A stretch of 64,000 nucleotides of DNA from contig NZ_BONW01000028.1 in assembly GCF_016862915.1 (NCBI RefSeq), positions 62,001 through 126,000 of the forward strand. Reading direction: 5' to 3'. This DNA is from Plantactinospora endophytica. Its GTDB lineage: Bacteria; Actinomycetota; Actinomycetes; Mycobacteriales; Micromonosporaceae. Below, in pieces: positions 13,963 to 31,979 of this stretch. Under the pieces are notes generated by a model. It searched no databases, had not been told where the DNA came from, and was given only the letters and a program-made list of their open reading frames with translations. A program made the translations under genes and the position numbers. How positions within the stretch are numbered: the first letter of the stretch is position 1; each line of letters starts with the position of its first letter.

Positions 13963-14508
13963 GTGCACCAGCCGAGCTTTGTCTTCCTGGCCATGTCCGC
14001 GGGGTCGGGTGCCCGGGCGGACGAAGCCGCTGAGGAGGTCATCTGGATGCTCATCTCGCCGAACAACCGGAAGCTCGGTCGGGGCGAGGTGGGCTACCGG
14101 ACGTACGTGGAATGTCGGGCGGCCGTCAAGCGGTTGCGCGAGCAGCACCACCGGACCAGTGCGCTGGCCCTGACCGACGAGTTCACCGGCCAGTGGGCGT
14201 GGCGGCTGGATCTCGACGGCGAGACGGTGGCCATTTCCAGCCGGTCCTACCTGCGGGCCCGCGAGTGCAACTACAACCTCGAACGGTTCCTCGCCGCCGT
14301 CCCGCTGGCCGAGATCGTCGAGGGCACCCGCCTGGTACGCAAGGGGCGGCGGGTGGCGTCGCAGGGTGACCGGGCGGCCGGGCGTGCCGCGCCGCGGGTC
14401 CTGCCGCCCCGGTTGGGCGACGGTCCGGTCGACCTGCGGCGGCCACCGGCGACCGAGGTCGGCCGCCGGGCCGGCGCCGAGCTGCGGGCACAGCGATGGC
14501 CCCGGTAG
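13963..14508 (+). CDS. DUF1508 (YegP)-like protein leading the pst operon
   Basis: The 181-residue soluble protein has a central region (~50-120) resembling the YegP/DUF1508 fold: WRLDLDGETVAISSRSYL followed by a helix with ECNYNLERFLAAVP. That beta-hairpin-plus-helix repeat is usually found as short stand-alone stress proteins. The C-terminus is basic and probably disordered. I chose GTG 13963 because GGGAGGA lies 4 bp upstream; the alternative ATG at 13909 has no such site. The gene overlaps pstC by 13 bp, so it is co-translated with a phosphate permease, an unusual partner for this fold. The link to phosphate control is inferred from position only. Confidence 0.65.
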   Translation: MHQPSFVFLAMSAGSGARADEAAEEVIWMLISPNNRKLGRGEVGYRTYVECRAAVKRLREQHHRTSALALTDEFTGQWAWRLDLDGETVAISSRSYLRARECNYNLERFLAAVPLAEIVEGTRLVRKGRRVASQGDRAAGRAAPRVLPPRLGDGPVDLRRPPATEVGRRAGAELRAQRWPR

Positions 14509-15533
14509 ACACGCCCCGGACCACGATCCCGGGCGCCGCGACCGGGCCGGCGGACGCGCCCCGCCGGGTGCGGGAGCGGCGGGGCGGTGCCGACCTGCTG
14601 TTCCGGGCCCTGGCCCGAGGCGGCGGTGTCGTGGTGCTGTGCGTGATGCTGCTGGTCGGCGGCTTCCTGCTGTACCGGGCCCAGGACGCGCTCGGTGTCG
14701 CCGGGTGGTCGTTCCTGACCACCCAGGAGTGGGACCCGGACGCGGGCGCCGGACGGTTCGGGATCGCCGCCGTGCTGACCGGCACCGTGCTGATCGCCAT
14801 GGTGGCGATCGTGGTCGCGGTACCGCTGGCGACCGGAGCGGCGCTCTACATCTCCGAGTACGCGCCGAGGCGGATCAGGCAGACGCTGATCAGCCTGGTC
14901 GACCTGATGGCCGCCGTACCGAGTGTGGTGTACGGGCTGTGGGGATTCTTCCTGCTTCAGGACAACGTGCTCGGGTTGAGCAATTGGATCACCACCTATT
15001 TCGGGTGGATTCCGATTTTCGACGTGAAGGACTCCGATCCGCGCGATCCGCTCTCGACGATGACGGTCTACACCTCGTCGACATTTGTCGCCGGTCTGGT
15101 CGTGGGCATGATGATCACGCCTATCGTCTGCTCGATCATGCGGGAGGTCTTCTCCCAGGCGCCGCCCGGGGAACGGGAGGGCGCGTACGCGCTCGGCGCG
15201 ACGAAGTGGGGCATGATCCGGGCCGTCGTCCTGCCGTTCGGCCGGGGCGGCATGATCGGCGGCACGATGCTGGGGCTGGGCCGGGCGCTCGGCGAGACGA
15301 TCGCCATCGTCATGATCATTTCTCCGGTCTTCAAGATCCAGCCGCACATCCTGGAGAACGGGGCCAGCTCGGTCGCGGCGTTGATCGCGCTGCGCTACGG
15401 CGACTCCACCGAGGCCGGCATCTCGGCGCTCTTCGCCGCCGGGCTGGCCCTCTTCGTCATGACCCTGATCGTGAACTTCCTCGCCTCGATGATCATCGCT
15501 CGCAGCCGCTCCGGCGCGGCGAGCGAGGTCTGA
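14496..15533 (+). CDS. pstC: Phosphate ABC transporter permease PstC
   Basis: The 345-residue protein has six membrane helices in the PstC layout. The periplasmic loop after helix 3-4 is long (QDNVLGLSNWITTYFGW and on). The cytoplasmic EAA loop that docks the ATPase, about residues 225-246, contains EREGAYALGATKWGMIRAVV. Motifs AAVPSVVYGLWG and LGRALGETIAIVMI are typical. It should pair with PstA and use the PstB ATPase encoded ~13 kb downstream. The gene overlaps the DUF1508-like gene, and pstA follows. The cytoplasmic N-terminus (~35 residues, Arg-rich) is longer than in E. coli. Confidence 0.93.
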   Translation: MAPVDTPRTTIPGAATGPADAPRRVRERRGGADLLFRALARGGGVVVLCVMLLVGGFLLYRAQDALGVAGWSFLTTQEWDPDAGAGRFGIAAVLTGTVLIAMVAIVVAVPLATGAALYISEYAPRRIRQTLISLVDLMAAVPSVVYGLWGFFLLQDNVLGLSNWITTYFGWIPIFDVKDSDPRDPLSTMTVYTSSTFVAGLVVGMMITPIVCSIMREVFSQAPPGEREGAYALGATKWGMIRAVVLPFGRGGMIGGTMLGLGRALGETIAIVMIISPVFKIQPHILENGASSVAALIALRYGDSTEAGISALFAAGLALFVMTLIVNFLASMIIARSRSGAASEV

Positions 15534-15546
15534 CGGGCACCGACGA

Positions 15547-15635
15547 TGAACAGCACGACACGCAGCACGACAGCCAGCACGAGCAGCACGACCGGCACGA
15601 CGACCGGCACAGGCAGCACGACCAGCACGACGAAC
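15547..15635 (+). repeat. Degenerate AGCACGAC-type tandem repeat between pstC and pstA
   Basis: About ten imperfect copies of AGCACGAC/GGCACGAC fill 15547-15635. Read in the pstA frame they encode an almost pure Ser/Thr/Gly stretch. They lie between two candidate pstA starts (15546 and 15651), so they are either a leader or a low-complexity N-terminus. Confidence 0.7.
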
Positions 15636-15650
15636 AAGGGGCGCCCGACG

Positions 15651-17051
15651 ATGAGCCCGAAGCACCCGGTGGACGTCCCGACCGGGACACCGACCGACGC
15701 ACCGGCCGATTCGGCGGTCCGGGTCGCGCGGGCGCGGTCGGGAGGTGGCGGCAGCACCATCCTGCCGGTACGCCGGGAGCAGCCGGACGCGGTCGAGGTG
15801 CGCCGGGTCACCGCCACGGTACGGCGCACCGACGTCTTCGCAGCGGTCGGCGCGACGGTCGCCGCGCTGAGCGTGACCACGCTGCTCTACACCCAACTCG
15901 CCCCGTTCGACGGCGTACTCGGCTTCGTCGTGCTCGGCTACCTGGCGTTCCTCGGCTTCTACGGCCTGCTGGTGTCGCTGGACGAGGACGGCCCCGCCGT
16001 ACGCGACCGGCTGGTCGGTGCCGTCGTGCACAGCCTCGGCTTCCTGGTCCTCGCCGTACTGGCGCTGGTGGTCCTCTACACCTTCGCCGAGGGCTGGCGA
16101 CCGTTGACGCACCTGAACTTCCTCACCGAGGACATGTCGGTCACCGGTCCGCTCGAACCGCTGACCCAGGGCGGCGCCCTGCACGCCATCGTCGGCACCC
16201 TCCAGCAGATCGGCCTGGCGCTGCTGTTCACCGTGCCGCTCGCGATGATCTGCGCGGTCTTCCTCAGCGAGATCCCGGGCCGGCTGAGCCGGCTGGTCCG
16301 GACGATCGCGGAGGCGATGACCGCGCTGCCGTCCATCGTGGCCGGCCTGTTCGTCTACGCGACAGTGATCCTCGCGCTCGGCTACCGCCACTCCAGCTTT
16401 GCCACGTCGCTGGCGATCAGCGTGATGATGCTGCCGATCATCATCCGCGCCGCCGACGTGGTGATCCGGCTGGTACCCGGAAGCCTGCGCGAGGCCGCGC
16501 TGGCGCTGGGCGCCTCGCAGTGGCGGACGGTCTGGCACGTGGTACTGCCGACCGCGCGGTCCGGGCTGACCACCGCAGTGATCCTGGGCACCGCGCGGGG
16601 CATCGGCGAGACCTCCCCGGTACTGCTGACCGCAGGCGGCGCGACAAGCGTCAACCTGAACCCGTTCGACGGCTGGAACAACTCGCTGCCGCTGGTCACC
16701 TACGCGCTCACCCGGTCGCCCGAGGAGAGCTTCATCGTCCGGGGCTTCGGCACCGCCGCGACCCTGATGGTGCTGGTACTGCTGCTTTTCGTGCTGGCCC
16801 GGCTGGTCGGCGGACGCGGCCCGGGACAGTTGAGCCGGCGGCAACTGCGACGCCGGGCCCGCGAGTCGGCCCGGGACGTGACCCGGTACGCCCGACGCGC
16901 CGGACCGCCTCCCGCCGTCCGCGCCGTCGGACCCGCGCCCGCCGTCCGCTCCGCCGGACCTCCGCCCGCGCCGCGCCCCGGGACGGCCGGCGCCGACCGG
17001 CACGGTGTGCCCGCCGTGTCCCCACCCGAAAAGGAGAACCGTGATGGCTGA
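15651..17051 (+). CDS. pstA: Phosphate ABC transporter permease PstA
   Basis: This PstA-type permease has a ~60-residue polar N-terminus, a pair of helices (~65-115), then the six-helix permease core. The EAA loop is REAALALGASQWRTVWHVVLP-like, near residue 280. Other typical motifs are MTALPSIVAGLF, GTARGIGETSPVLL and NPFDGWNNSLPLVTY. It forms the membrane channel with PstC. I chose ATG 15651 because AAGGGG lies 10 bp upstream. ATG 15546, 12 bp after pstC, is in frame but adds only the Ser/Thr repeat. The Pro/Ala/Arg-rich C-terminal extension (~60 residues) is unusual for PstA. The stop overlaps the pstS start. Confidence 0.92.
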   Translation: MSPKHPVDVPTGTPTDAPADSAVRVARARSGGGGSTILPVRREQPDAVEVRRVTATVRRTDVFAAVGATVAALSVTTLLYTQLAPFDGVLGFVVLGYLAFLGFYGLLVSLDEDGPAVRDRLVGAVVHSLGFLVLAVLALVVLYTFAEGWRPLTHLNFLTEDMSVTGPLEPLTQGGALHAIVGTLQQIGLALLFTVPLAMICAVFLSEIPGRLSRLVRTIAEAMTALPSIVAGLFVYATVILALGYRHSSFATSLAISVMMLPIIIRAADVVIRLVPGSLREAALALGASQWRTVWHVVLPTARSGLTTAVILGTARGIGETSPVLLTAGGATSVNLNPFDGWNNSLPLVTYALTRSPEESFIVRGFGTAATLMVLVLLLFVLARLVGGRGPGQLSRRQLRRRARESARDVTRYARRAGPPPAVRAVGPAPAVRSAGPPPAPRPGTAGADRHGVPAVSPPEKENRDG

Positions 17052-18708
17052 GACCGCAACCCGGATGCGTCGGGGGGTGGCCCGGCTGCTCGCGCTCGCC
17101 CTGGTCGCGGCGTCGGTGCTGCTCGGCACGCCGGCCACCGCCGCGCCCCGGCTCGTCTCGATCACCGGCTCCGGTTCGACCTGGAGCCAGAACGCGCTCG
17201 ACCAGTGGCGGGCCGACGTCCGGCAGAACAACATCACCGTGCACTACAGCGGCGTCGGCTCGACGGCGGGTCGCAACGCCTTCGCGCAGGGCACCGTCGA
17301 CTTCGCGGTCTCCGAGATCGAGTTCGGTGCGGAGGCGAACGAGGCCATCCCGCGCCGCAGGTTCGCGTACATGCCGATCGTGGCCGGTGGCACCTCGTTC
17401 ATGTACAACCTGAAGATCGGCGGTCGGCGGGTGACGAACCTGCGGCTCTCCGGGGACGTGATCGCCAAGATCTTCACCGGTTCGATCCGGATGTGGAACG
17501 ACGCCGCGATCCGGGCCGACAATCCCGGGCTCAACCTGCCGGCCCGGCGGATCGTGCCGGTGGTCCGCTCCGACGGCTCCGGCACCACCGCCCAGTTCGT
17601 CAAGTGGATGAACAACCAGTACCCGTCGATCTGGCGCCCCTGGTGCCGGTCCAAGGGTCGGACCGAGGCGCAGTGCAACGTGCTGTCGTTCTACCCGCCC
17701 GGGTTCACCGCGCAGGCCGGGTCGAGCCAGATCGCCGGGTACGTCGCGGGCAGCAACGCCGAGGGCGCCATCACCTACGTCGAGTACTCGTACGCCAAGG
17801 AGAACGGGTTTCCGGTGGTGAAGGTGCTCAACAAGGCCGGGTACTACGTGGAGCCGACCGCCAACAGTGTCGCGGTGGCGCTGACCAGGGCGCAGATCGA
17901 GACCGGCAACCCGAACGCGCAGAACTACCTGACCCAGAAGCTGGAAGGCGTCTACAACGACCGGGACAAGCGCACCTATCCGCTCTCCTCCTACTCGTAC
18001 ATGGTCATCCCGTTGGCGCACGAGAACGGCGTGACCGAGGGCAAGGCGTACACGCTGGGCCGGTTCGCCTACTACTTCCTCTGTCAGGGCCAGCAGAAGG
18101 TCGACCTGCTCGGCTACTCGCCGCTGCCGATCAACCTGGTGGAGGCGGGTTTCAACCAGGTGAAGCGGATTCCCGGCGTGGTGCAGGAGGCGCGGCCGAT
18201 CCGGAGCTGCAACAACCCGACGTTCTCCACCGACGGCACCAACACCCTCGCCCGGACCGCCGTCAACCCGCCGGAGTGCGACAAGAAAGGGAACGGTCAA
18301 CAGTGCACGGCCGGTACCGGTGGCGCCGCCGGCACCCCGACCGAGAACAGCAACAACAACTCCGGCGGCAGCGGCACCGGCAACGGCAGCGCCGGTACTC
18401 CCGGCGGAACCGGCAACCCGGGCGGCACCGGTACCAGCCCCAGCGTCGCACCGACCGCCAGCCAGTCGGCCGGACCGGGGCTGGTCGACCCGGCCACCGG
18501 AGAGGTGATCGGCAACGGCAACGGCGGCGGGGGTGAGCAGTTCGTCGCGGGCGTACCCGTCTCGCTCGCCGGCGAGGGCGGCTGGCGACTGCGGCACACC
18601 ATGATGGTGCTGGCCGGGATCGTGCTGCTCGCCCTGGTGGTCGGCCCACCGTTGATCTTCCGGCGGTCCGGGGTCACCCGCACCGGCACCGAAGGACCGA
18701 AGCGATGA
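17044..18708 (+). CDS. pstS: Membrane-anchored phosphate-binding protein PstS
   Basis: A signal peptide (residues 1-34, ATAAP) leads into a two-lobed phosphate-binding domain. Ligand motifs are TGSGSTW (41-47), TVDFAVSEIEF and RSDGSGTT (175-182), so phosphate contacts look intact. After ~residue 395 comes a Gly/Asn/Thr-rich spacer of ~90 residues, then a C-terminal membrane helix (~518-540) and a basic tail. The protein is therefore anchored by its C-terminus rather than as a lipoprotein; there is no lipobox. The start (GTG 17041 or ATG 17044, after AAGGAGAACC) overlaps the pstA stop. The next gene overlaps its stop by ATGA. All four genes from pstC on form one coupled operon. Confidence 0.9.
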   Translation: MAETATRMRRGVARLLALALVAASVLLGTPATAAPRLVSITGSGSTWSQNALDQWRADVRQNNITVHYSGVGSTAGRNAFAQGTVDFAVSEIEFGAEANEAIPRRRFAYMPIVAGGTSFMYNLKIGGRRVTNLRLSGDVIAKIFTGSIRMWNDAAIRADNPGLNLPARRIVPVVRSDGSGTTAQFVKWMNNQYPSIWRPWCRSKGRTEAQCNVLSFYPPGFTAQAGSSQIAGYVAGSNAEGAITYVEYSYAKENGFPVVKVLNKAGYYVEPTANSVAVALTRAQIETGNPNAQNYLTQKLEGVYNDRDKRTYPLSSYSYMVIPLAHENGVTEGKAYTLGRFAYYFLCQGQQKVDLLGYSPLPINLVEAGFNQVKRIPGVVQEARPIRSCNNPTFSTDGTNTLARTAVNPPECDKKGNGQQCTAGTGGAAGTPTENSNNNSGGSGTGNGSAGTPGGTGNPGGTGTSPSVAPTASQSAGPGLVDPATGEVIGNGNGGGGEQFVAGVPVSLAGEGGWRLRHTMMVLAGIVLLALVVGPPLIFRRSGVTRTGTEGPKR

Positions 18709-21366: not shown

Positions 21367-21410
21367 ATTCATTCGGCCTACATGTTGGCGAAATTTTGCG
21401 CACTGAACGT
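21367..21410 (+). promoter_or_regulatory. PHO box (four 11-bp units) upstream of the first PstS-like paralogue
   Basis: Consecutive units are at 21367-21377 (ATTCATTCGGC), 21378-21388, 21389-21399 and 21400-21410 (GCACTGAACGT). Unit 1 fits the PhoP direct-repeat consensus G/A-TTCA-N4-GG of actinomycetes. The whole element recurs at 22720 and 24277. Confidence 0.75.
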
Positions 21411-21464
21411 TCCCACGATCCAGGTATCGCGTCCCCGGCCCGGCGATCGATGCTCCAGTCGGCT

Positions 21465-21511: not shown

Positions 21512-22564
21512 ATGCAGGTGAGGATAATTGTCGCGACGGTGGGCGCGGCCCTCGTCGCGGCCGTCGGTGCCGTGGCGGTGGCCGGCCCGGCCGCCGCCGA
21601 CCCGAGTCCGGTGACCGACTACCGGACGCTGGCGGGGGTCGGTTCGGACACCACCCAGGACGTGCTCAACGGGCTGGGCGAGGCGATCACCGTCGGCGGC
21701 CAGAAGGCGATCGCGTCCTGGGACGCGCGGGGCACCGCGACCGTCAAGACCAAGGCGACGGGCTGCGAGCTGGCCCGGCCGAACGGCTCGTCGGCGGGTC
21801 GCACGGCGCTGCGGGACTCGGAGCTGCCCGGCAGCCCCACCGCCGGCTGCGTCGACTTCGCCCGGTCGTCGAGCGGTACCACGAACGTCCCGTCCGGCAC
21901 CGGAACCTGGGTACCGTTCGCCGTGGACGCGGTCAGCTTCGCGATCAACCGGAACAGCGACCTGCCGATCAACATGTCGGTGGCGCTGCTGCAGAACATC
22001 TACAAGTGCGTGATCAGCCACATCGGCGGCATCCCGATCCAGCCGCTGCTGCTACAGGCCGGCTCCGGCACCCGGCAGTTCTGGAACGGGCAGATGTCCA
22101 TCACCGACCAGGAGATCGCCCTCGGCGACTACCCGTGCCTGGTGCCGGCGTCGCCGACGGTGCCGGACGGTAGCGGACTTCCGGAGGTGCAGGAGCACGA
22201 CGCCCGGGTACTCGAGGGGCACACCGACTACCTCATGCCGTACTCGATCGCCCAGCACATCGCCCAGGGCAACAGCCTGGCCGGGGTCGAGGACCGGCGT
22301 GGCCCGTCGGAACTCGGCCGGATCAACACCGTGTCGCCGTACGCGGCCGGGACGGCTCCGCCGAACGAGGTACTGAACGTCAACTTCCCGCTGCGCCGGA
22401 CGGTGTACAACATCGTTCCGACCGCCGACCTGAACAACAGCGTGATCGACCAGGTGTTCACCGGCGCCGACTCGCTGATCTGTCAGCGGGCCGCCCTCAT
22501 CCAGCAGTACGGCTTCGGCGTCGCCGCCGACTGTGGTTCCGTCGCGCTGCGCGGCAACCTCTGA
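21512..22564 (+). CDS. Secreted PstS-like substrate-binding protein, paralogue 1
   Basis: A signal peptide (1-29, AAADP) is followed by a periplasmic-binding-type fold. Possible ligand loops are GVGSDTTQDVLNGLG near the N-terminus, DFARSSSGTT in the middle and QAGSGTRQFW, which occupies the place of PstS's RSDGSGTT. There is no lipobox and no C-terminal anchor, so the protein is released or held non-covalently. It is closely related to the next gene. Both sit behind near-identical PHO boxes, so phosphate control is likely. Replacement of the PstS Asp-containing loop suggests a changed ligand. GGAGGAAAGGGAGAACC precedes the ATG. A strong hairpin terminator follows, so it is monocistronic. Confidence 0.8.
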   Translation: MQVRIIVATVGAALVAAVGAVAVAGPAAADPSPVTDYRTLAGVGSDTTQDVLNGLGEAITVGGQKAIASWDARGTATVKTKATGCELARPNGSSAGRTALRDSELPGSPTAGCVDFARSSSGTTNVPSGTGTWVPFAVDAVSFAINRNSDLPINMSVALLQNIYKCVISHIGGIPIQPLLLQAGSGTRQFWNGQMSITDQEIALGDYPCLVPASPTVPDGSGLPEVQEHDARVLEGHTDYLMPYSIAQHIAQGNSLAGVEDRRGPSELGRINTVSPYAAGTAPPNEVLNVNFPLRRTVYNIVPTADLNNSVIDQVFTGADSLICQRAALIQQYGFGVAADCGSVALRGNL

Positions 22565-22719: not shown

Positions 22720-22763
22720 ATTCATCTGGCCTTCATGCGGGCGAAGGATTGGGCACGGAACGT
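22720..22763 (+). promoter_or_regulatory. PHO box upstream of the second PstS-like paralogue
   Basis: Units are at 22720-22730 (ATTCATCTGGC), 22731-22741 (CTTCATGCGGG), 22742-22752 and 22753-22763 (GCACGGAACGT). The element lies 106 bp before the start codon. It is nearly identical to the elements at 21367 and 24277. Confidence 0.78.
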
Positions 22764-22869
22764 TTTCTGAATACCGGTGTCGATGTCTGCGGGAATCAGG
22801 GAATGCTGATTGCAGCCCATTCATACAGGGGAATGGGTCGACCTCCTGTCTGGCGTGAAAGGGAGAACG

Positions 22870-23982
22870 ATGCAGGTTAAGTCCCTCGGGAAGGCGGTGG
22901 GGACGGCGCTCGCGGCCGTACTCGCCGTCACGGCGGTGGCCACCCCGGCCTCGGCCGACCCGTTCACCGGGTTCCCCCCGTACCCGACCGACCCTGCCGC
23001 CTACCGGATCCTGGCCGGCACCGGCTCGGACACCACCCAGGACGTGCTGAACGGTCTCGGCGCGGCGATCGGCGGCGGCACCGTGCTGGCCTCCTGGGAC
23101 GCGCGCGGCACCTCGCCCATCAAGACCAAGGCCACCAACTGCGTGTTCCAGCGGCCGAACGGCTCCACGGAGGGCAACCGCTCGCTGTGGGCCTCGAAGG
23201 TGCAGGCCCCGGCGGCCAGCACCATCGAGGAGTGCGTCGACTTCGCCCGCTCGTCCAGCGGTACGACCCTGGTCGCCGGGGGCAACGGGACCTGGATCCC
23301 GTTCGCCCTGGACGCGGTGACGTACGCGATCAACGAGAACAGCGACCTGCCGACCAACATGTCGCTGTCGCTGCTGCAGAACATCTACAAGTGCGTCACC
23401 AGGACCGTCGGCTCCTTCCCGGTCCAGCCGCTGCTGATCCAGCCCGGCTCGGGTACCCGGCAGTTCTGGAACCAGCAGATGGGCATCACCGACGCGGAGA
23501 TTGCCGCCGGTGACTACCCCTGCCTGGTGCCGGCGTCGGCGACCGTGCCGGACGGTACCGGCGTCGCGCCGGTGCAGGAGCACGACGGTCGGGAACTGAC
23601 CGGACACAACTCCTACGTCATGCCGTTCTCGATCGCCCAGCACATCGCCCAGGGCAACAGCATGGCGGGGGTCGAGGACCGGCGCGGTCCGGCACTGCTC
23701 GGCAGCATCAACACCGTCTCGCCGTACGCCGCCGGCAGCAACCCGCCGAACGAGGTGCTCAACCCCGCCTTCCCGCTGAACCGGCGCGTCTACAACATCG
23801 TCGCGTCCAGTGAGCTGACCGAGGAGTGGATCGACCGGGTCTTCACCGCCGGTGGGTCCTTCGGTTCGCTGCTCTGCGCGCAGAGCGGGGTCATCACCAG
23901 CTACGGGTTCGCGACCATCGGCGACTGCGGGTCGACCGCACTGACCGGCAACCTGAACACCACCGGCTGGCCGCCGGCCTGA
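22870..23982 (+). CDS. Secreted PstS-like substrate-binding protein, paralogue 2
   Basis: The 370-residue protein has a signal peptide (1-~31, ASADP) and the same binding fold as the gene at 21512. It shares GTGSDTTQDVLNGLG, DFARSSSGTT, LLQNIYKCV, QPGSGTRQFWNQQMGITD and VEDRRGP, and ends with a longer tail. ATG 22870 follows AAAGGGAGAACG; an in-frame ATG at 22810 has no good site. Two paralogues, each with its own PHO box and terminator, look like a recent tandem duplication followed by divergence. I infer that both bind phosphate or a phosphorylated compound outside the cell and feed the Pst permease, but no ligand can be read from the sequence. Confidence 0.8.
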   Translation: MQVKSLGKAVGTALAAVLAVTAVATPASADPFTGFPPYPTDPAAYRILAGTGSDTTQDVLNGLGAAIGGGTVLASWDARGTSPIKTKATNCVFQRPNGSTEGNRSLWASKVQAPAASTIEECVDFARSSSGTTLVAGGNGTWIPFALDAVTYAINENSDLPTNMSLSLLQNIYKCVTRTVGSFPVQPLLIQPGSGTRQFWNQQMGITDAEIAAGDYPCLVPASATVPDGTGVAPVQEHDGRELTGHNSYVMPFSIAQHIAQGNSMAGVEDRRGPALLGSINTVSPYAAGSNPPNEVLNPAFPLNRRVYNIVASSELTEEWIDRVFTAGGSFGSLLCAQSGVITSYGFATIGDCGSTALTGNLNTTGWPPA

Positions 23983-24000: not shown

Positions 24001-24633
24001 TCTCGGTGTAGACGGTTGCCAGCCGGGGCAGCGGGAAACGGCCGGCGCTCACGCCCCATCGATTCCAACCCGCACTCGTGGCCGGCGTTCCGCGCCGGTC
24101 GCGAGTGCGACCTCGGGCGCTCCGCTGCTCCGCCGAACACCCGTCGACGGAACGGCCGTTTCGGCGGTCCGCCGGGCACCGGTCGACGGGACGGACGGAT
24201 CGCGGTGACTGTCCGGTCTCGACGGTCGGTCGAATGGCCGATCGCGAATTCCGCCCCTCGTCGGAAAGCGCTTCGGGTTCATCTGGCCTTCATGTTGGCG
24301 AAGCATTGGGCACGAAACGTTTCCGGAGCGCGGGTGTCGACGTACCCGATGGGCAGGGAATGCTGGTCGCGGTCCATTCGGCGAAGGTCGGACGGACCGG
24401 TCTTGGCACTTCGCTCCATCGACCCGGCGTAATTGGTCCGGCGCAATTGTCCGGATCGCGGGTCGACGCAGAGAACCTCAGTGGAGTCCGGCCGGTGGAA
24501 ACCACACCGGATTCAGCGTTTTTCCGACGTTTGCGCACCATCACGGCGGCGCTTCCGGCCGCCGGACCGAGGCCCCGGGTAACGACCCGGGAACGGCGAA
24601 CCCGCGAAACCGCACCGAGAGAGGAAGTGCTTC
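23983..24633. other. Long intergenic/leader region with PHO box
   Basis: This 651-bp stretch has no supportable gene. It holds the terminator of the upstream gene, GC-rich low-complexity sequence with GTCGACGG and GTCGACGGGACGG repeats near 24133-24195, and the PHO box at 24277. A leader of roughly 300 nt then runs to the start at 24634. Confidence 0.6.
24277..24320 (+). promoter_or_regulatory. PHO box upstream of the surface-protein/pstB operon
   Basis: Units are at 24277-24287 (GTTCATCTGGC), 24288-24298 (CTTCATGTTGG), 24299-24309 (CGAAGCATTGG) and 24310-24320 (GCACGAAACGT). This is the best match of the three to the actinomycete PhoP direct-repeat pattern. It precedes the gene run 24634-29194, which includes pstB. 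Confidence 0.8.
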
Positions 24634-25377
24634 GTGAGCAAGGCCAAGTCTCTGTTCGTCCGGACGGCGGCGGTGCTGTCGACCGTCACGGTCGCGACGC
24701 TGGCGCTGCTGACCGCCCCCGCGCAGGCGGAGAGCCCGATCCTGGGCACCGTCGCGCTGGCGCCCGGCGGCGGCGGCGTCAACGACAACCCGTTCGTGAC
24801 CGGGGCCACCACCTCGGCGGCCTGCCCGAGCGGCTTCGGCGAGAACGCCGCGCTGAAGGTCGGCCCCGTCGGCGGCCCGTACAGCCCGCTGGCCCGGATC
24901 GGCGGCCTGGCGAACTACGACCAGGCGCCGTTCACCCTCGCGGCGAACCGTTCGCTCGCCACCGCCCTCGGGGCGGCCCCGGCGGACGGCACCTACGAGG
25001 TGGCGATCTCCTGCTCCGGTACGACCGGGGCGGCCGCCAAGGACTTCTCGACCCTGATCACCGTCACCGGCGACACCTGGGCGGTGAAGAACGCGGCGGC
25101 CACCACCACCCGGCTGAACGCCAAGCCGGTGCTGTTCGCCTTCGAGGGCCAGCGGGTGACGCTGACCGCGACGGTGCGGCGCAACGCCGCCGGCAGCGTC
25201 GAGTTCTTCGCCGATTCCAGCAGCGTCGGCACCGCGCCCGTGGTCGACGGCAGCGCCGTACTCGCCACCACCACCCTGCCGAGCGGCCTGCTCCGGCTCA
25301 CGGCCACCTTCACCCCCGAGGACCCGCGGCTGTTCGCGCCCTCCACGTCGCAGATCTGCTACCTCGTGATCGGTTGA
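24634..25377 (+). CDS. Secreted surface protein: novel Cys-pair domain plus Ig-like repeat (paralogue A)
   Basis: A signal peptide (1-32) is followed by a ~110-residue domain (38-150) shared with the genes at 25472, 26501 and 29495. Shared features are a GTV/TLxP start, SAACPSGFG with Cys64, KVGPVGGPY, YDQAPFTLAANRSLATAL and a second Cys127. The Cys pair probably forms a disulfide. Residues ~155-247 form a bacterial Ig-like (Big_3/Big_5 type) domain with RVTLTATVRR and GSVEFF. There is no anchor. The gene starts with GTG after GAGAGGAAG and is the first gene after the PHO box. I do not recognise the N-terminal domain. A cell-surface structural or binding role is inferred. Confidence 0.8.
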   Translation: MSKAKSLFVRTAAVLSTVTVATLALLTAPAQAESPILGTVALAPGGGGVNDNPFVTGATTSAACPSGFGENAALKVGPVGGPYSPLARIGGLANYDQAPFTLAANRSLATALGAAPADGTYEVAISCSGTTGAAAKDFSTLITVTGDTWAVKNAAATTTRLNAKPVLFAFEGQRVTLTATVRRNAAGSVEFFADSSSVGTAPVVDGSAVLATTTLPSGLLRLTATFTPEDPRLFAPSTSQICYLVIG

Positions 25378-25471
25378 GTCAGCGCGTCCGAGACGCGTGC
25401 CACCCGGGTGGCCGGAGGTCCTCTGTGGACGTCCGGCCACACGCCCGTGTTGTCGACAGGAAAGGAACACT

Positions 25472-26365
25472 GTGCAGACGCCACCCCGCCGGCTCGGCCG
25501 GACCGGCGCGACGCTCCTCGCGGTCGCGCTGACCTTCGGTGCCGGCATGACCGCCGCGGCGATGGTCGCCCTCACCCCGCCGGCCCAGGCGGCACCCTCG
25601 CTCGGCACCCTCACCATCTCGCCGACCAGCGGCAGCGTGACCGAGGGTACGCGGGACGCGCCCGCCTTCACCGCTGGCACCTCGGCGGCCTGCCCGGCCG
25701 GCTCGGGCGCCCAGGCACAGCTCAGGATCAGCCCGGCCGGTCAGCCGGGCCGGCCGGCGGGCGGCAACCTCGCCCGGATCGCCAGCGACACCAACTACGA
25801 CCGCGCGCCGTTCACCCTCCGCACCGACCGGTCGATCGCCAGGGCGCTGGACCCGACTCCCGACGACGGCAACCATCCGGCGCCGGCGGACGGCGACTAC
25901 CGGATCACCGTCGAGTGCATGACCGAGCTGGCCGAGGTGCACGAACACTGGTTCCAGGCGCTGGTCACGATCAGCGGACCGACCTGGCAGGTCAAGCAGG
26001 CCCCGAGCGGCTCGCCCACCCCGACCGGTTCGGCCGACCCGACCCCGACCGCCAGCCCGACGGCGACGCCGACCGCGAGCCCGACGGCCAGTCCCACGCC
26101 GACGCCGACGGAGCCGGCCAGCCCGACGCCGACTCCCACGGAGACGGCCAGCCCCACACCCACCCCGACGGAGACGGCCAGCCCCACGCCGACCCCGACC
26201 GAGTCGGAGAGCCCGAGTCCGAGCCCCAGCCAGACCGAGGGAGGCGGTGGCGGCAACCTCGCGCTGACCGGTACCTCACTGCCGACCCTGCTGACCGGCG
26301 GTCTCGTCCTCGTCGTCGTCGGCGTGGCCGCGATGCTGCTGGCCCGGCGCCGCGACCACCCGTAA
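25472..26365 (+). CDS. LAXTG-anchored surface protein with the Cys-pair domain (paralogue B)
   Basis: A signal peptide (~12-41) leads into the same Cys-pair domain, with TSAACPAGSG (Cys74) and ITVECM (Cys149). Here it has a ~10-residue insertion before the second Cys. A Pro/Thr/Ser wall spacer of ~75 residues (PTPT and ETASPTPTPT repeats) follows. The sorting signal is LALTG at 263-267, a hydrophobic helix and an RRRDHP tail, the LAXTG type preferred by class E sortases. GTG 25472 follows AGGAAAGGA. It is a predicted covalently wall-anchored protein. The sortase-like gene 1 kb downstream lacks the catalytic Cys, so a housekeeping sortase elsewhere would have to attach it. Confidence 0.82.
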   Translation: MQTPPRRLGRTGATLLAVALTFGAGMTAAAMVALTPPAQAAPSLGTLTISPTSGSVTEGTRDAPAFTAGTSAACPAGSGAQAQLRISPAGQPGRPAGGNLARIASDTNYDRAPFTLRTDRSIARALDPTPDDGNHPAPADGDYRITVECMTELAEVHEHWFQALVTISGPTWQVKQAPSGSPTPTGSADPTPTASPTATPTASPTASPTPTPTEPASPTPTPTETASPTPTPTETASPTPTPTESESPSPSPSQTEGGGGGNLALTGTSLPTLLTGGLVLVVVGVAAMLLARRRDHP

Positions 26366-26500: not shown

Positions 26501-27367
26501 ATGTCCGTACTGGGACCAGTGCAGTACCGAGGACCGGCGCTGCTGCTCTCGGCGTTGCTGCTCGCCGCAGCCGGGTCGGCGGTACCGGCGTCGGGCGCCC
26601 CCGCCCTGCCGACCGGCCGCGACGCGGCCCTCGGCACACTCACCGTCACCCCGAGCAGCGGGACCGTCGACGGCAATCCGATGCTCGCCTCGGCGACCAC
26701 GTCGGCACCGTGCCCGGCCCGGTACGGCTCCGCCGCGCTGCTGCGGGTCGGGCCGGTCGGCGGCCCGTACAGCAACATCGCCCGACCGGGCGGGGCCGGC
26801 GGCTACGACACGGCGCCGGTCACCATGAACCCGAACCGGTCGATGGCGATGTCCCAGGGCCGGCCGCCCGTCGACGGCGAGTACGCGATCGTCGTCGAGT
26901 GCGTCAGCGACACCCTGGGCACCCATCCGGACCGCTTCGAGTTCCGGATCGTCGTGACCGGCGGCACCTGGCGGGTCGACACCCGCGCCGCCGGCCGGCC
27001 CGCACCGTCGGGCACCGCCGCCCGGGGCACGACCGACCCGACCGACGGCTCCGACGGTGGCGCGACGGGCCCGGCCAGCGACTCCGACGGCGCGACGGGC
27101 CCGGCCAGCGACTCCGACGGCGCGACGGGCACGGCGGGCGGTTCCGACGGCGACACGACCGGCACGGCACCGCCCGCGCCGGCCGACGCGCCCGGGGAGC
27201 GGGCCGCCGCGACCAGCCCGCCATCGGCTCCGGCCCCGGCCGACCTGGCCGGTAGACCGGAGCAGACCGGCTCGCCGCTGCCCTGGCTGCTCGGTGGCGC
27301 CGCCCTGCTGGCGTGCGTGGCGGTCGTGGTCCCACTGGTCCGCAGGCGGGGGAGGAGACAGCCGTGA
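26501..27367 (+). CDS. Membrane-anchored surface protein with the Cys-pair domain (paralogue C)
   Basis: A signal peptide (~11-33) precedes the shared Cys-pair domain: SAPCPARYG (Cys71), LRVGPVGGPYSN, YDTAPVTMNPNRSMAM and VVECVS (Cys134). The spacer contains 10-residue repeats (GATGPASDSD twice, then GATGTAGGSD), encoded by a 30-bp DNA repeat. The C-terminus is PEQTG (253-257), a hydrophobic helix and RRRGRRQP. This looks like a degenerate sorting signal and may act only as a membrane anchor. ATG 26501 follows GAGGAAGGAAACC. The stop overlaps the start of the sortase-like gene (GTGA), tying the two products together. Confidence 0.8.
   Translation: MSVLGPVQYRGPALLLSALLLAAAGSAVPASGAPALPTGRDAALGTLTVTPSSGTVDGNPMLASATTSAPCPARYGSAALLRVGPVGGPYSNIARPGGAGGYDTAPVTMNPNRSMAMSQGRPPVDGEYAIVVECVSDTLGTHPDRFEFRIVVTGGTWRVDTRAAGRPAPSGTAARGTTDPTDGSDGGATGPASDSDGATGPASDSDGATGTAGGSDGDTTGTAPPAPADAPGERAAATSPPSAPAPADLAGRPEQTGSPLPWLLGGAALLACVAVVVPLVRRRGRRQP
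27059..27148 (+). repeat. 30-bp tandem repeat within paralogue C
   Basis: A 30-bp unit is perfect at 27059-27088 and 27089-27118 and degenerate at 27119-27148. It encodes the repeated spacer GATGPASDSD. Confidence 0.85.
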
Positions 27368-28350
27368 CCGCCACCGTCCAACCGCCGACCGTGTCACCGA
27401 CCGATCTCGGTCCGCCACCACCGGCCGGCCCACCCCGCTCGGCATCCGCGTCCGGCGGTTCGCCGTCCCGACCCGCTCCGACCCGGCCGCCCCGATCGGT
27501 CGAGATCCCGGCCGTACGCGTCACCGGCACCGTGCTGACCCTGCTCGGGGTGCTGCTGCTGGCCTTCGTCGTACACCTGACGCTGATCTCCCAGCTCCGC
27601 TACGAGCGGGCCCAGCAGACGGCGTACGCCGACTTCCGCAAGGAACTGGCCGAGGGGATCGCACCGGTCGGCCAGACCGACCTCGACGGCGAACTGCTGC
27701 GTCCGGGCGCCTCGGTGGCGGTACTCCGGATCCCCGCGCTCGGCACCCGGCAGGTGGTCTTCGAGGGGACCGGCGCAGGCGTGTTGCAGAACGGTCCTGG
27801 GCACCGCCGCGACACGGTACTGCCCGGCCAGCCCGGCACGAGCGTGCTGCTGGGCCGGCATGCGGGGTACGGCGGTCCGTTCGCCGGGCTGGCACTGCTG
27901 AACCCCGGCGACGAGATCGTGGTGGTGACCGGGCAGGGCGAGCACCGGTACCGGATCACCGGCCTGCGCCGCCCCGGCGATCCGCTGCCGTCCCGGCTGG
28001 CCGAGGGGGCGGGCCGGCTCACCCTGGTCACCGCCGACGGCCGGCCGTACCTGCCAAACGACGTCCTGTACGCCGACGCCGACCTCGTCTCGCCGGCCCA
28101 ACCCGCGCCGCAGCGGCGGTTCGGGGCGCAGTCGCTGACCCCGGCCGAGCAGGCGATGGCCGGCGACCCGGACGCCTGGGTGCCGCTGGTGCTGTGGGGC
28201 CAGGCGCTGCTGATCGCCGCCTACGCGGTGAGCTGGGCCTGGGCCCGCTGGGGCGGTTGGCAGGCGTGGGTGTCCGGCATGCCGCTGCTCGCCGTCCTCG
28301 GCCTCACCGTGGCGGACCAGGCCGTCCGACTCCTGCCCAACCTCTACTGA
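27364..28350 (+). CDS. Sortase-fold membrane protein lacking the catalytic cysteine
   Basis: The 328-residue protein has a Pro-rich cytoplasmic N-terminus, a membrane helix (~53-75), a sortase beta-barrel (~110-245) and two further helices near the C-terminus (~280-325). The barrel shows class E/D hallmarks: [28 protein letters not shown] with the catalytic-type His166, and LTLVTADGR. In active sortases the last motif reads TLVTC. Here the Cys is Ala224, and the Arg expected ~10 residues later (R-x-V-V) appears as Asn in PNDVLYADA. Transpeptidation is therefore unlikely, and a binding or scaffolding role is inferred. GTG 27364 overlaps the stop of a sorting-signal protein, and pstB starts 13 bp after its stop. 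Confidence 0.82.
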
Positions 28351-28363
28351 CGACGGAGCCGAG

Positions 28364-29194
28364 ATGAGCCTCGACAGCACCTCCCTGATGCCCACCGCCC
28401 CGCCCGGCCCGTACGGCGGCCTGGCAGCCCTGGAAGCCAGCGCGATATCCGCGTGGTTCGGCCAGCACAAGGTGCTCGACCGGGTGTCGCTGACCATGGC
28501 GGCCGGCGAGGTCACCGCCCTGATCGGGCCGTCGGGCTGCGGGAAGTCCACCTTCCTGCGGATCCTCAACCGGATGCACGAACTGATCCCCGGGGCGTCG
28601 CTGGCCGGCGAGGTGATGCTCGACGGCCAGGACCTGTACGCGCCGGTCCGCCGGATCACCGACGCCCGCCGGCAGGTCGGGATGGTCTTCCAGAAGCCCA
28701 ACCCGTTCCCGACGATGTCCATCTACGACAACGTCGTCGCCGGACTGCGGCTCACCGGTACCCGGATCAACCGTGCCGACCGGGACGCCCTGGTCGAGGA
28801 GTGCCTGACCAAGGCCGGCCTCTGGAAGGAGGTACGGGATCGGCTCCGCTCGCCGGGCGGTGCGCTCTCCGGCGGGCAGCAACAGCGGCTCTGCATCGCC
28901 CGCTCGCTGGCGGTACGGCCCCGGGTGCTGCTGATGGACGAGCCCTGCTCCGCGCTCGACCCGACCTCGACCCGGCGGATCGAGGAGACCATCGCCGAAC
29001 TGGTGGCCGAGGTGACGATCGTGATCGTCACGCACAACATGCAGCAGGCAGCGCGGGTTTCCGACCAGTGCGCGTTCTTCCTCGCCGAACACGGTACGCC
29101 CGGCGCCATCGTCGAGCACGGGCCGACCGAGGTGATGTTCGACAGCCCGCAGGACTCTCGTACCTACGACTATGTGCACGGACGGTTCGGATAG
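28364..29194 (+). CDS. pstB: Phosphate ABC transporter ATP-binding protein PstB
   Basis: It is a complete ABC ATPase with Walker [19 protein letters not shown]-loop VFQKPNPFP, signature [17 protein letters not shown], Walker [14 protein letters not shown] and switch His in [19 protein letters not shown] and [16 protein letters not shown] are PstB-specific. It should energise PstC/PstA. It is separated from pstCA-pstS by ~10 kb and lies 13 bp after the sortase-like gene, so it is transcribed with surface-protein genes. This odd placement links that block to phosphate import. The N-terminus is ~20 residues longer than in E. coli. No phoU is present. Confidence 0.95.
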
Positions 29195-29285
29195 GCCGAT
29201 CCGCCGACCGGTCGATGGCGTTCACCGGGTCGGCGACGGCAACGAAAAGGTGAACCGGCTGCTCGCGCCGGCTCTGACATCTGCC

Positions 29286-29318
29286 ATTCATGCGGTGGAT
29301 CAACTCGATTCTTTCCGC
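29286..29318 (+). promoter_or_regulatory. Weak PHO-box-like element upstream of the WxL protein gene
   Basis: ATTCATGCGGT (29286-29296) matches unit 1 of the box at 21367 in 9 of 11 positions. The two following 11-mers match poorly. GTTCACCGGGT at 29220-29230 is a second lone half-unit. Treat it as a candidate only. Confidence 0.25.
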
Positions 29319-29494
29319 TGTCGATCCCGTGTCAGTTCGGCCGTAACCCGCAATTTTCCTGCTGCATGTCCGGCCTTGGCGTTGGCCTGCACGACGGGTC
29401 ACGGCCCGTGTGCAGCCTGATCGAGGTCGCGGCAGGTGACTGCTCCCGACGGGGGAGAGCCGCCGCACCGCATTCCTCGCGAAGGAAGTGATTC

Positions 29495-30718
29495 ATGAAG
29501 GCAACGAAGACCCTGCTCGGTCGGGCGGCCGCCCTGGCCGGCGCGGTCGCGCTGACCACGGTCGGCCTGGTCGGCGTCGCGGCGCCGGCCCAGGCCGCCG
29601 CAGCGGGCACCATTACCCTCAACCCCACCAGCGGCAGCGTCACCGACAACCCGATGCTGTCCCAGGCCACCACCTCGGCGGCCTGCCCCACCGGCTTCGG
29701 CGACCAGGCCGCCCTGCGGGTCGGCCCGGTCGGCGGTCAGGTGGCCAACCTCAACCGGATCGCCAGCGACACCGGCTACGACACGGCTCCGTTCACCCTG
29801 GCGGCCAACCGGTCGATGGCGACGGCGCTGGCCGGCACTCCGGCCAACGGCGACTACGTCGTCGTGATCGAGTGCCTCAGCGAACTCAACGGGGTCCACC
29901 CGGACCGCTTCGAGACCGTGATCACGGTCAACGGAGGTAACTGGCGGGCCAAGGGCGCGGTCGACCCGGTCGTCCCGACCACCACCGTGCTGGGCGCCAG
30001 CCCGGCCGGACCGGTCGAGGCCGGCACCGCCGTGACCCTCACCGCCACCGTGGACCCGGCCGCTGCGGCCGGTACGGTCTCCTTCCGCAACGGCAGCACG
30101 GCGGTCGGCACCGCGCCGGTGTCGGGTGGTACGGCCGCGATCACCATCTCCACCCTTCCGGTGGGGAGCAACTCGCTCACCGCCCAGTTCACCCCGGCTG
30201 ACCCGGCGGCCTTCGGGCCGTCGACGTCGACCGAGGTGAACGTCCAGGTGACCGCACCGGGTGCCGTCAACAAGGGGCAGGAGATCACGGCCGAGATCGT
30301 CGGCGGTGGCCTCTCGCTGGAGGTGGCGGGTACCGCTGTCGCCCTCTCCGGCGGTGTGGTCGGCGGTACGGCCACCGGCACGCTGAACACGGCGACGGTG
30401 ACCGACCTGCGCGGCACCAGCGCCGGGTGGAACCTCACCGGGCAGGTGGAGGACTTCGTCGGCCCGGCCGGCGCCACCATCGACGGCAACCAGCTCGGCT
30501 GGACGCCGAACGCCGGCAAGGTCAGCGGCAGCGGCACCGCCACCGCGGGCGCCGCCGCGGCGCCGGGTACCGGCCTGGGGGAGACCAGGACCCTCTGCCG
30601 GGCCGACGAGGGCAGCAGCGCCGGCACCTTCGAGTGCGGCGCCGGTCTGGGCCTCGGCATCCCGGACACCACCACGCCGGGCAGCTACGCCGGCACCCTC
30701 ACCCTGACGCTGGTCTGA
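29495..30718 (+). CDS. Secreted surface protein: Cys-pair domain, Ig-like domain and WxL-like domain (paralogue D)
   Basis: The signal peptide (1-34) is followed by the shared Cys-pair domain, with Cys64 and Cys127 at exactly the positions seen in the gene at 24634. An Ig-like domain covers ~160-250. A C-terminal region (~255-407) resembles WxL cell-wall-binding domains: GWNLTGQVEDF with Trp312-Asn-Leu314, GNQLGWTPNAGK, a Cys pair and the closing SYAGTLTLTL strand. In Firmicutes, WxL domains bind peptidoglycan and DUF916-type partners. A DUF916 protein is encoded immediately downstream. GCGAAGGAAG precedes the ATG. A strong terminator follows. The WxL call is by eye; the second WxL motif is degenerate (LTL). 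Confidence 0.8.
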   Translation: MKATKTLLGRAAALAGAVALTTVGLVGVAAPAQAAAAGTITLNPTSGSVTDNPMLSQATTSAACPTGFGDQAALRVGPVGGQVANLNRIASDTGYDTAPFTLAANRSMATALAGTPANGDYVVVIECLSELNGVHPDRFETVITVNGGNWRAKGAVDPVVPTTTVLGASPAGPVEAGTAVTLTATVDPAAAAGTVSFRNGSTAVGTAPVSGGTAAITISTLPVGSNSLTAQFTPADPAAFGPSTSTEVNVQVTAPGAVNKGQEITAEIVGGGLSLEVAGTAVALSGGVVGGTATGTLNTATVTDLRGTSAGWNLTGQVEDFVGPAGATIDGNQLGWTPNAGKVSGSGTATAGAAAAPGTGLGETRTLCRADEGSSAGTFECGAGLGLGIPDTTTPGSYAGTLTLTLV

Positions 30719-30737
30719 CCGGCCGACGGTCGAGGCG

Positions 30738-30782
30738 ACGGCGGGGGTACCACGGGCATCCGGTCCGTGGCGCCCCCGCCGT
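30738..30782. terminator. Strong hairpin terminator after the WxL protein gene
   Basis: ACGGCGGGGG (30738-30747) pairs with CCCCCGCCGT (30773-30782), with an inner CACGG/CCGTG stem. It lies 20 bp after the stop. Confidence 0.8.
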
Positions 30783-30902
30783 ACCACCGTTTGAAGAACC
30801 AACCACGACGCAGTGCTGCCGGACAAGCCGTGACCGAGCACAGCGCGGACCTCGGCCCGCTCGGCCGCCCAGGTCGTCGCGCTGAGGAGCGAGGAGCCAA
30901 CA

Positions 30903-31979
30903 ATGACCGTCATCCGATTCCGCCGCGTCTTCGCCGCCTCGGTCGTCGCCGTCGCCCTGCTGGCCGCGCCGGCCGGCCCGGCCGCTGCCGCCCCCGGCGA
31001 CGAGTTCCGGTGGACCGTGGAGCCGGCCGACGCGACCGGCGCCGCTCCACCCGGCCAGTTCGGTTACGACCTCGCCCCCGGGCAGCAGCGCGACGACCGG
31101 GTGGCGGTGACCAACCGGTCGGTCCGGCCGCTCACCGTGACCGTGTACGCCACCGACGCGTCCACCTCGGGCGACGGCGCGTTCGCGCTGCCGCCGGCCA
31201 GCCAGCCCGCGCGCGAGGCCGGTGCCTGGATCGGCCTGGAGCGCCAGGTCCGGACCCTGCGCCCCGGGGAGCGGGCCGTCCTGCCGTTCCGGGTGACCGT
31301 CCCCCGTGACGCGACGCCGGGCGATCACGCGGCCGGGATCGTCGCCTCGGTCGCCGAGCAGCGTACCGACGCCGAGGGGCAGCGGGTCAACGTGGAGCGT
31401 CGGGTCGGCGCGCGGATCTACCTGCGGGTGAACGGGCCGCTCGCGCCGATGGTCGACGTCGAGTCGGTGCAGGTCGGGTACGCGAACTCGGCGGTGCCGT
31501 TCGCCCGTGGCCCGGCGACGGTCACCTACCGGCTGCGCAACCCCGGCAATGTCCGGGTCGGCGGCACCGCCAAACTGCGCACCACCGGCCTGTTCGGCGT
31601 ACCGCTCGCCAGCGGTCAGGACGTCACCCTGCCGGAGTTGCTGCCCGGTGCCCGGGTGACGCTGGTCCGCCGGATCGACGGGGTACCGTCGGCCGGCATG
31701 GTCACCGCCACGGTACGGGTCGAGGCCACCAGCAGCGAGGGACCGCTGCCCGTCGTGACCCGTACCGGAACGGTCTGGACCTTTCCCTGGACGATGCTCT
31801 ATCTCCTCGTGGTGATCGGCGCGGTGCTGGCCCTGCTCTGGTGGCGTCGACGTCGGCGGCGTGCGGCCGGAGTCGACGCCACGCCGGCCGACGATCCGGT
31901 CGAGCCGGCCGAGGTCGCCGACCCGGACACCGGCCGGGCGGACGACGGAGAGGCCGTCCCGCTGGCCGCCCCGCGCTGA
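30903..31979 (+). CDS. DUF916-type WxL-interacting membrane protein
   Basis: The 358-residue protein has a signal peptide (~10-31), two beta-sandwich domains (~35-155 and ~160-290), a membrane helix (~298-320) and a basic cytoplasmic tail. The first domain has DUF916 (WxLIP peptidoglycan-binding) features: a FRWTVEPAD start, GYDLAPGQQRDDRVAVTNRS, GAWIGLERQVRTLRPGERA and VPRDATPGDHAAGIVAS. In the csc clusters of Lactobacillales such proteins pair with WxL proteins at the wall. The WxL-like gene just upstream makes the same pairing here. GAGGAGCGAGGAGCC precedes the ATG. No close partner follows. Confidence 0.85.
   Translation: MTVIRFRRVFAASVVAVALLAAPAGPAAAAPGDEFRWTVEPADATGAAPPGQFGYDLAPGQQRDDRVAVTNRSVRPLTVTVYATDASTSGDGAFALPPASQPAREAGAWIGLERQVRTLRPGERAVLPFRVTVPRDATPGDHAAGIVASVAEQRTDAEGQRVNVERRVGARIYLRVNGPLAPMVDVESVQVGYANSAVPFARGPATVTYRLRNPGNVRVGGTAKLRTTGLFGVPLASGQDVTLPELLPGARVTLVRRIDGVPSAGMVTATVRVEATSSEGPLPVVTRTGTVWTFPWTMLYLLVVIGAVLALLWWRRRRRRAAGVDATPADDPVEPAEVADPDTGRADDGEAVPLAAPR

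Follow-up and report, generated by a model that had tools for sequence, protein, structure and literature searches.

A candidate second, surface-extended Pst importer with a conserved pseudosortase in actinobacteria

Pst is the textbook phosphate pump. In a 64-kb stretch of the 9.68-Mb Plantactinospora endophytica genome (the whole stretch that we analysed, called the window here), a block of genes on a single strand at positions 13963 to 31979 combines the pst genes with genes for PstS-like proteins, a sortase-like protein and further secreted proteins. This raises the question of which of these genes belong together, and what a nutrient importer would do with such surface proteins. A preliminary description made from the letters alone proposed a WxL/csc-like surface system wired into the Pst importer, and every element that it named (the pst, PstS-like, Cys-pair, sortase, WxL and DUF916 genes) lies where it was placed. 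Our own reading differs in its core: with moderate confidence, we propose that the cluster encodes a dedicated second actinobacterial Pst importer, extended at the cell surface, linked to Pho control and equipped with non-catalytic accessory subunits.

Linkage of the sortase-like gene to a second Pst

We searched 150 Micromonosporaceae genomes with the sortase-like protein as the sole query and found matches in 42 of them, spread over 23 of 44 genera (E ≤ 1e-10). Regions of about 20 kb around 40 of these places, together with the window, form a set of 41 family loci, with six strong and three weak sortase places outside it. A scan of named genomes with the pattern RDT[VP]LPGQxG, which favours the sortase-like family and says nothing on neighbouring genes, confirmed 323 loci; the best 80 of these were examined with a stored flank of 10 kb, and all counts for named loci given below refer to these 80. 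Some genomes occur in both sets, and the 121 loci together hold 107 distinct sortase sequences.

The genes for PstC, PstA, PstS, the 871-residue protein that we call pseudo-PstS, the PstS-like protein, the sortase-like protein (hereafter the pseudosortase) and PstB are all present in 41/41 family loci. pstB is found in all 121 loci, including 80/80 named ones, and directly follows the pseudosortase gene in 117: it starts at most 700 nt 3′ of it in 38 of the 41 family loci and is its direct 3′ neighbour in 79/80 named loci, L138 being the one that departs. In the three remaining family loci, a PstS-like gene on the opposite strand lies between the two genes (L068 and L069) or pstB lies upstream (L070). 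Where the named loci have enough flank, PstS-like genes were found in 68/68, pseudo-PstS in 66/66, pstS in 61/66, pstA in 57/66 and pstC in 53/63, and the misses for the last three genes probably lie beyond the stored 10 kb. The recurrence of this linkage in 121 loci, which carry 107 distinct sortase sequences, rules out a chance neighbourhood.

The named hosts include Micromonospora, Dactylosporangium, Actinoplanes, Streptomyces, Streptacidiphilus, Amycolatopsis, Jiangella, Nakamurella, Galbitalea, Microbacterium and a Catenulispora bin, and among the named loci that of Plantactinospora mayteni is closest to the window, with 89% identity in the sortase-like protein. A thin class-wide sample gave matches to this protein in 20/98 genomes and 15/63 genera (E ≤ 1e-20), a count of protein matches alone with neighbourhoods left outside it. 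In one locus, L037 (genome G091), the pstC, pseudo-PstS, PstS-like and WxLIP genes are each split into two open frames, either by decay or by sequencing error.

Two PstB proteins of the P. endophytica genome reach E ≤ 1e-70, one canonical (376 bits, above the cut-off) and the other the cluster copy (336 bits). At least two pstB genes were found in 19 of 20 cluster-bearing genomes tested (E ≤ 1e-80) and exactly one in each of four cluster-less genomes. A tree of 49 PstB sequences separates the 28 cluster copies, as a single clade with support of 100/100, from the 21 others, with the caveat that long branches meet in it and its bootstrap had not converged. This pattern fits an ancient paralogous system better than a recent duplication. 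Locus L052 belongs to a near-complete genome (G052) whose sole pstB above the threshold is of the cluster type, and this organism may depend on the cluster importer alone. Near the cluster of Streptomyces aidingensis (L093), a second pst set with pstS-like and pstB-like frames lies on the minus strand at about 17.5 to 20.8 kb.

In its resemblance to the PstSCAB phosphate importer, an ATP-binding cassette (ABC) transporter, the cluster has PstC, PstA, PstB and a PstS with phosphate motifs. PstC and PstA pass the phosphate equivalog cut-offs, and the window PstB, which retains its ABC ATPase domain, falls slightly short (336.2 against 343.2 bits); the cluster PstB proteins of genomes G061 and G015 pass the TIGR00972 cut-off. 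The cluster differs from PstSCAB in a PstS anchored by a C-terminal transmembrane (TM) segment, in additional PstS-fold proteins (one of them without the binding motifs), in the pseudosortase gene, and in a PstB clade apart from the canonical PstB.

Receptor proteins, PHO boxes and the imported compound

On reading the sequence, the window PstS has a long low-complexity linker and a C-terminal TM segment, and no lipobox was seen in it. Its motifs G.GST, VDFxVSE and RSDGSGT are kept across 87 distinct homologues, with R and SG in 87/87 and the G and S of G.GST in 86/86. We take the binding residues of PstS to be Asp56, Arg135 and SGT in the usual numbering and roles. At the acidic position of the phosphate site, the cluster homologues have Glu in 77/86 and Asp in 9/86.

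The 871-residue protein consists of a Cys-containing, beta-rich N-terminal part, a C-terminal half with a predicted PstS fold and a C-terminal TM segment. It matches no Pfam family, and its only NCBIfam line is at chance level (E 0.06); within its family, one of 22 members gives a weak PBP match and there is otherwise no Pfam family. Its AlphaFold model has a mean predicted local distance difference test (pLDDT) score of 73.7, and Foldseek gave 28 hits with E ≤ 1e-3, all of them to PstS or to other proteins that bind phosphate. An hhalign comparison with the PstS family agrees (probability 99.4, E 3.8e-20), and the segments that align to VDFxVSE and RSDGSGT keep neither motif. The protein can thus be described as a pseudo-PstS, with a modelled PstS fold and without the phosphate-binding motifs.

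Of the two free PstS-like proteins, which are 65% identical, the first was modelled (pLDDT 85.7) and matched PstS structures with a best E of 5.2e-11. Aligned as a family to PstS (hhalign probability 95.3), they keep GSDT and SGT, have Ser in place of the acid and have lost the Arg.

A 22-bp motif, an 11-bp direct repeat of the PHO box type, occurs three times in the window with zero mismatch against 0.01 expected, 5′ of both PstS-like genes and of the first Cys-pair gene. This motif was written from the window sites themselves, and the looser pattern TTCAY-N6-TWCAY, an 11-bp direct repeat, serves as an independent test: it matched the genome 23 times and its reversed control once. Seven of the 23 were assigned: three lie in the cluster, one precedes the canonical lipoprotein pstS, two fall between a sigma-like gene and a DUF47-pit pair, and one precedes a secreted phosphodiesterase-like gene (the gene names at the four sites outside the cluster come from reading the sequence). 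In the 107 distinct loci, it was found at 22 sites in 15 loci, 21 of these sites being noncoding, and the control gave no match. The third window box closely resembles the ppk box of A. balhimycina, which has been tested by electrophoretic mobility shift assay (PMC3004843). The window boxes share the direct repeat with those of the Streptomyces PHO box regulon, and differ from them in lying inside the operon before secreted genes instead of before the first gene. We rejected boxes before pstC as a general feature: a degenerate scan with the 11-bp PHO consensus, run on the 55 loci whose flank was long enough, did not exceed the control in the window and found little in the other loci, and strict boxes stand before pstC in L082 and L145 only.

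From these sites, the window importer is very probably under PhoP control, and Pho control is likely for the window cluster and some of its relatives. The proposal of a conserved, Pho-linked surface system physically merged with the Pst importer is borne out by the three strict boxes in the window and the conserved pst linkage. In the three copies of the box (21367-21430, 22720-22783 and 24277-24340), the similarity runs about 30 bp further downstream (TTGGCGAA..ATTGGGCAC..AACGTT), and this extended similarity possibly represents a shared promoter module.

Motifs and profiles together make phosphate import by the cluster a well supported prediction. The operon could instead import another phosphorus compound, such as a phosphate ester, pyrophosphate or phosphonate, or an oxyanion, with the altered receptor sites fitted to that ligand. 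The Glu in most PstS homologues, the Ser and lost Arg of the PstS-like family and the canonical-type pstB kept in parallel in 19/20 genomes would suit such a ligand, but PstC and PstA pass phosphate equivalog cut-offs, PstS retains R, SG(T) and G.GS(T), PHO boxes are present, and no phosphatase or phosphonate gene family was seen among the shared genes in a search limited to named profiles; we regard this alternative as unlikely.

The pseudosortase and the proposed assembly

The pseudosortase has an N-terminal TM segment, a class-E-like sortase domain and two C-terminal TM segments, the TM segments being read from the sequence. It matches solved sortases with E down to 3.2e-18 (the best being 5uus and 5go6) and Streptomyces coelicolor SrtE1 (5cuw) with E 7.4e-10, and it scores 79.9 to 80.6 bits against the class E model NF033747, below the cut-off of 160. 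We assigned the catalytic columns through alignments to 5uus and 5go6. Among the 107 distinct sequences, the catalytic His is replaced by Arg in every one; the catalytic Cys column holds Ala (96), Gly (5), Thr (3), Ser (2) or Val (1); and the catalytic Arg column holds Val (59), Leu (16), Ile (13), Thr (12), Ala (4), Ser, Phe or Tyr, and never Arg. No Cys occurs within two residues of its catalytic column in any of the 107, and 37 have a Cys elsewhere in the chain. The missing His, Cys and Arg rule out a functional class E sortase.

The protein shares a sequence match and the sortase domain with class E sortases such as SrtE1, and differs from them by the replaced catalytic residues (107/107) and the two added C-terminal TM segments. 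The motifs GPGH, PGQ, GxPF and PN are nearly or fully invariant across the 107 sequences, and the Pro and Asn of the C-terminal LLPNL are invariant. Because this conservation persists without the catalytic residues, it suggests that the pseudosortase has a selected, non-catalytic role. SCO1906, considered as a possible S. coelicolor relative, showed no link.

One such role would be the uncleaved binding of C-terminal sorting signals, by which the pseudosortase retains cargo with LPxTG- or LAxTG-type signals at the membrane beside Pst. The sortase domain with conserved GPGH and PGQ, the LALTG or LPxTG-like tails on cargo in the window and several loci, and a class E sortase above the cut-off encoded elsewhere in the genome (243 bits) are consistent with this. 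Against it, the interval from the PstS-like gene to the pseudosortase domain is 111 to 351 nt in six loci (L085, L087, L127, L139, L145 and L150), leaving no cargo gene there; because of these six loci, we conclude that the accessory genes persist without cargo between them. The residue after GPGH also differs, being Tyr in two solved relatives and Arg in 97/107 pseudosortases. Class E sortases have been proposed to read LAXTG via a loop Tyr (PMC5148588), which may be the Tyr after GPGH and would then argue further against retention. We consider such retention improbable.

In the assembly that we favour, that of a second Pst extended at the surface, PstCA and PstB would form the pump, and PstS would be its phosphate receptor, carried on a long flexible linker with a C-terminal membrane helix in place of the lipid. 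Pseudo-PstS and the pseudosortase would be non-catalytic membrane subunits docked on or beside PstCA, keeping both the receptor and the secreted PstS-like proteins on the side of the membrane that faces the wall. Receptor, pseudo-PstS, pseudosortase and PstCA would thus make up one membrane assembly, the PstS-like proteins would catch phosphate further out, and phosphate caught in the wall would be passed to PstCA. Lineage-specific wall proteins (Cys-pair, Ig-like, and WxL with WxLIP) may widen or position the capture zone and fix or space the assembly in the wall. The capture and presentation of phosphate compounds to Pst by surface proteins is plausible. The fuller version of this proposal, in which a sortase and a PstS both lost their activity and became permanent structural subunits of an ABC importer, within a wall-spanning phosphate relay that takes up lineage-specific wall-binding proteins, is more tentative, and we put it a little below even chances.

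Several observations weigh against a second, Pho-linked phosphate importer with inactive accessory proteins. Genome G052, with its cluster pstB alone, breaks the rule that the cluster is always a second system, and gene order deviates in 4/121 loci (L068, L069, L070 and L138). The prevailing Glu in the PstS site (77/86) departs from the Asp of the genome's canonical PstS, and an Arg stands two residues after the lost catalytic Arg in 83/107 pseudosortases. Only 15/107 distinct loci have strict PHO boxes in the cluster region; among these, the two sites of L093 seem to be part of the neighbouring minus-strand pst operon and L111's fall beyond the last cluster gene. In the window itself, no strict box precedes the first genes.

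A rather more doubtful alternative is that the cluster acts mainly as a cell-wall phosphate sensor, in which pseudo-PstS and the pseudosortase relay receptor occupancy via PstCAB to PhoU/PhoR. PstSCAB signals in other bacteria, the accessory subunits look non-catalytic, and a small conserved cytoplasmic protein starts the operon in most family loci; yet the window operon has no kinase, response regulator or phoU, and PstB keeps its ABC ATPase domain.

Optional cargo, gene layout and significance

Around this core, the variable secreted genes sit between the PstS-like gene and the pseudosortase or 3′ of pstB. A Cys-pair profile seeded by four window proteins found 96 open reading frames in 36/41 family loci, 92 of them beyond the seeds, and WxL and WxLIP genes likewise occur in 36/41. 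Among the 60 named loci with both flanks, WxLIP was found in 28; no WxL, WxLIP or Cys-pair match was found in 9 at E ≤ 1e-5, or in 22 at a threshold of 50 bits. Some of the named loci that lack these matches hold other secreted genes in the cargo place.

WxLIP proteins are also frequent away from the cluster. Relatives were found in 94 of the 150 family genomes, at 150 or more places; of the 150 listed, 40 have a cluster sortase within 15 kb and 110 have none, and 40 of the 47 strong sortase places have a WxLIP gene within 15 kb. All 12 fetched regions away from the cluster hold a WxL-WxLIP pair and no pst genes, and ABC ATPases are distant (77 to 98 bits) or none are nearby. Such pst-free WxL-WxLIP pairs (L176 to L187) are frequent in Micromonosporaceae.

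WxL systems have been described mostly from Firmicutes, and we compared the cargo with csc clusters as commonly defined there. The window WxL-like protein scores 23.1 bits against PF13731, under the cut-off of 25 that two of five homologues pass; for the DUF916 protein (PF06030, cut-off 27.3), the window member scores 31.1 and three of five homologues pass. One conserved GWx(V/L) motif was seen in the WxL-like protein, and reading of the window protein showed no second Trp-x-Leu, for which no family-wide search was made. No DUF3324 match was found in the window WxLIP protein or five homologues. The pair thus resembles the Firmicutes csc-type clusters in its adjoining WxL-like and DUF916 proteins and the C-terminal TM segment of WxLIP, and differs from them in the single GWx(V/L) motif seen, the lack of a DUF3324 match and its optional presence.

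We therefore set aside WxL and DUF916 as the working core, as they are optional cargo and their pairs occur also away from pst. That the locus is a csc-type adhesion or wall-binding cluster standing in a pst operon by chance, with WxL and WxLIP at its core, is very improbable: both are present in 36/41 family loci and WxLIP has been proposed to bind WxL and peptidoglycan (PMC10599100, seen in part), but WxLIP is absent from 32 of the 60 named loci with enough flank, the pst-pseudosortase core stays in the nine where none of the three cargo types was detected, and WxL-WxLIP pairs exist without pst. The expectation in the preliminary description that the surface genes would neighbour pst in other genomes held for the sortase-like and PstS-like genes, and often failed for the WxL and DUF916 genes; its picture of a WxL/csc-like system wired into Pst did not survive. 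It is pseudo-PstS, the PstS-like protein and the pseudosortase that accompany pst constantly; WxL, WxLIP and the Cys-pair proteins are optional cargo.

The features of the cluster are collected in Table 1. Several genes overlap or nearly touch in an operon-like manner (14496/14508, 17044/17051, 18705/18708 and 28350/28364), and pstB starts 13 bp 3′ of the pseudosortase stop. Among loci in which 1.2 kb or more precede the pstC domain, tblastn finds the DUF1508-like protein in 34 of 41, the window included. Its gene lies mostly 30 to 540 nt 5′ of that domain, the exceptions being L059 (14.8 kb away on the other side) and L068 and L069 (about 1.1 kb). A phage origin was discarded, as none of five proteins tested matched PHROGs.

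Table 1. Genes and PHO boxes of the cluster in the 64-kb window, with the basis of each assignment
Feature	Position	Strand	Basis or remark
DUF1508-like small cytoplasmic protein (weak)	13963..14508	+	PF07411 15.6 bits, below cut-off 22; 13-nt overlap with pstC
PstC permease	14496..15533	+	TIGR02138 263.6 bits, cut-off 196.45
PstA permease	15546..17051	+	TIGR00974 195.2 bits, cut-off 193.45; true start may be ~15651
PstS, C-terminal TM segment	17044..18708	+	PF12849 E 9.5e-44; TIGR00975 204.6 bits, cut-off 205
Pseudo-PstS, 871 aa	18705..21320	+	AlphaFold and Foldseek; hhalign to PstS family
PHO box (11-bp direct repeat), 5′ of first PstS-like gene	21367..21388	+	Motif scan
Secreted PstS-fold protein 1	21512..22564	+	AlphaFold and Foldseek; phosphate-site acid replaced by Ser
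PHO box 5′ of second PstS-like gene	22720..22741	+	Motif scan
Secreted PstS-like protein 2	22867..23982	+	Paralogue, 65% identity to PstS-fold protein 1
PHO box 5′ of Cys-pair genes	24277..24298	+	Motif scan
Cys-pair domain and Ig-like domain (Big_3_5), secreted	24634..25377	+	Pfam; Cys-pair profile
Cys-pair domain, Pro/Thr linker, LALTG-type sorting signal	25466..26365	+	Cys-pair profile; NCBIfam LAXTG-type models below cut-offs
Cys-pair domain, C-terminal TM segment and basic tail	26501..27367	+	Cys-pair profile; sequence reading
Pseudosortase	27403..28350	+	PF04203 E 3.4e-13; start may be 27313
PstB ATPase	28364..29194	+	TIGR00972 336.2 bits, just below cut-off 343.2
Cys-pair, Ig-like and WxL-like domains, optional cargo	29495..30718	+	PF13731 23.1 bits, below cut-off 25
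WxLIP/DUF916 protein, C-terminal TM segment, optional cargo	30903..31979	+	PF06030 31.1 bits, cut-off 27.3

Two further open frames of the window deserve mention. Just upstream of the cluster, positions 13288-13692 encode a secreted protein of 134 aa that ends in a sorting signal of the NLPRTG type and scores below all family cut-offs, and positions 50796-57917 hold an open frame of 2373 codons with a strong coding signal.

No description of this operon was found in the titles and abstract openings of the open-licence literature, which is not proof of novelty. The portion consulted of a 2021 review of actinobacterial phosphate transport makes no mention of a second pst, or of two, several or additional ones (PMC7866108). 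Many genera that are named and in culture carry the operon, so it is open to experiment. Antibiotic production in actinobacteria is influenced by phosphate control.

Many soil actinobacteria appear to carry an undescribed form of this textbook pump, built out at the cell surface. If this reading is right, a second Pst that is widespread and has conserved pseudo-subunits would alter the list of components of a model ABC importer, it would provide a conserved sortase pseudoenzyme, and the organisation of receptors in the thick Gram-positive wall would become testable.

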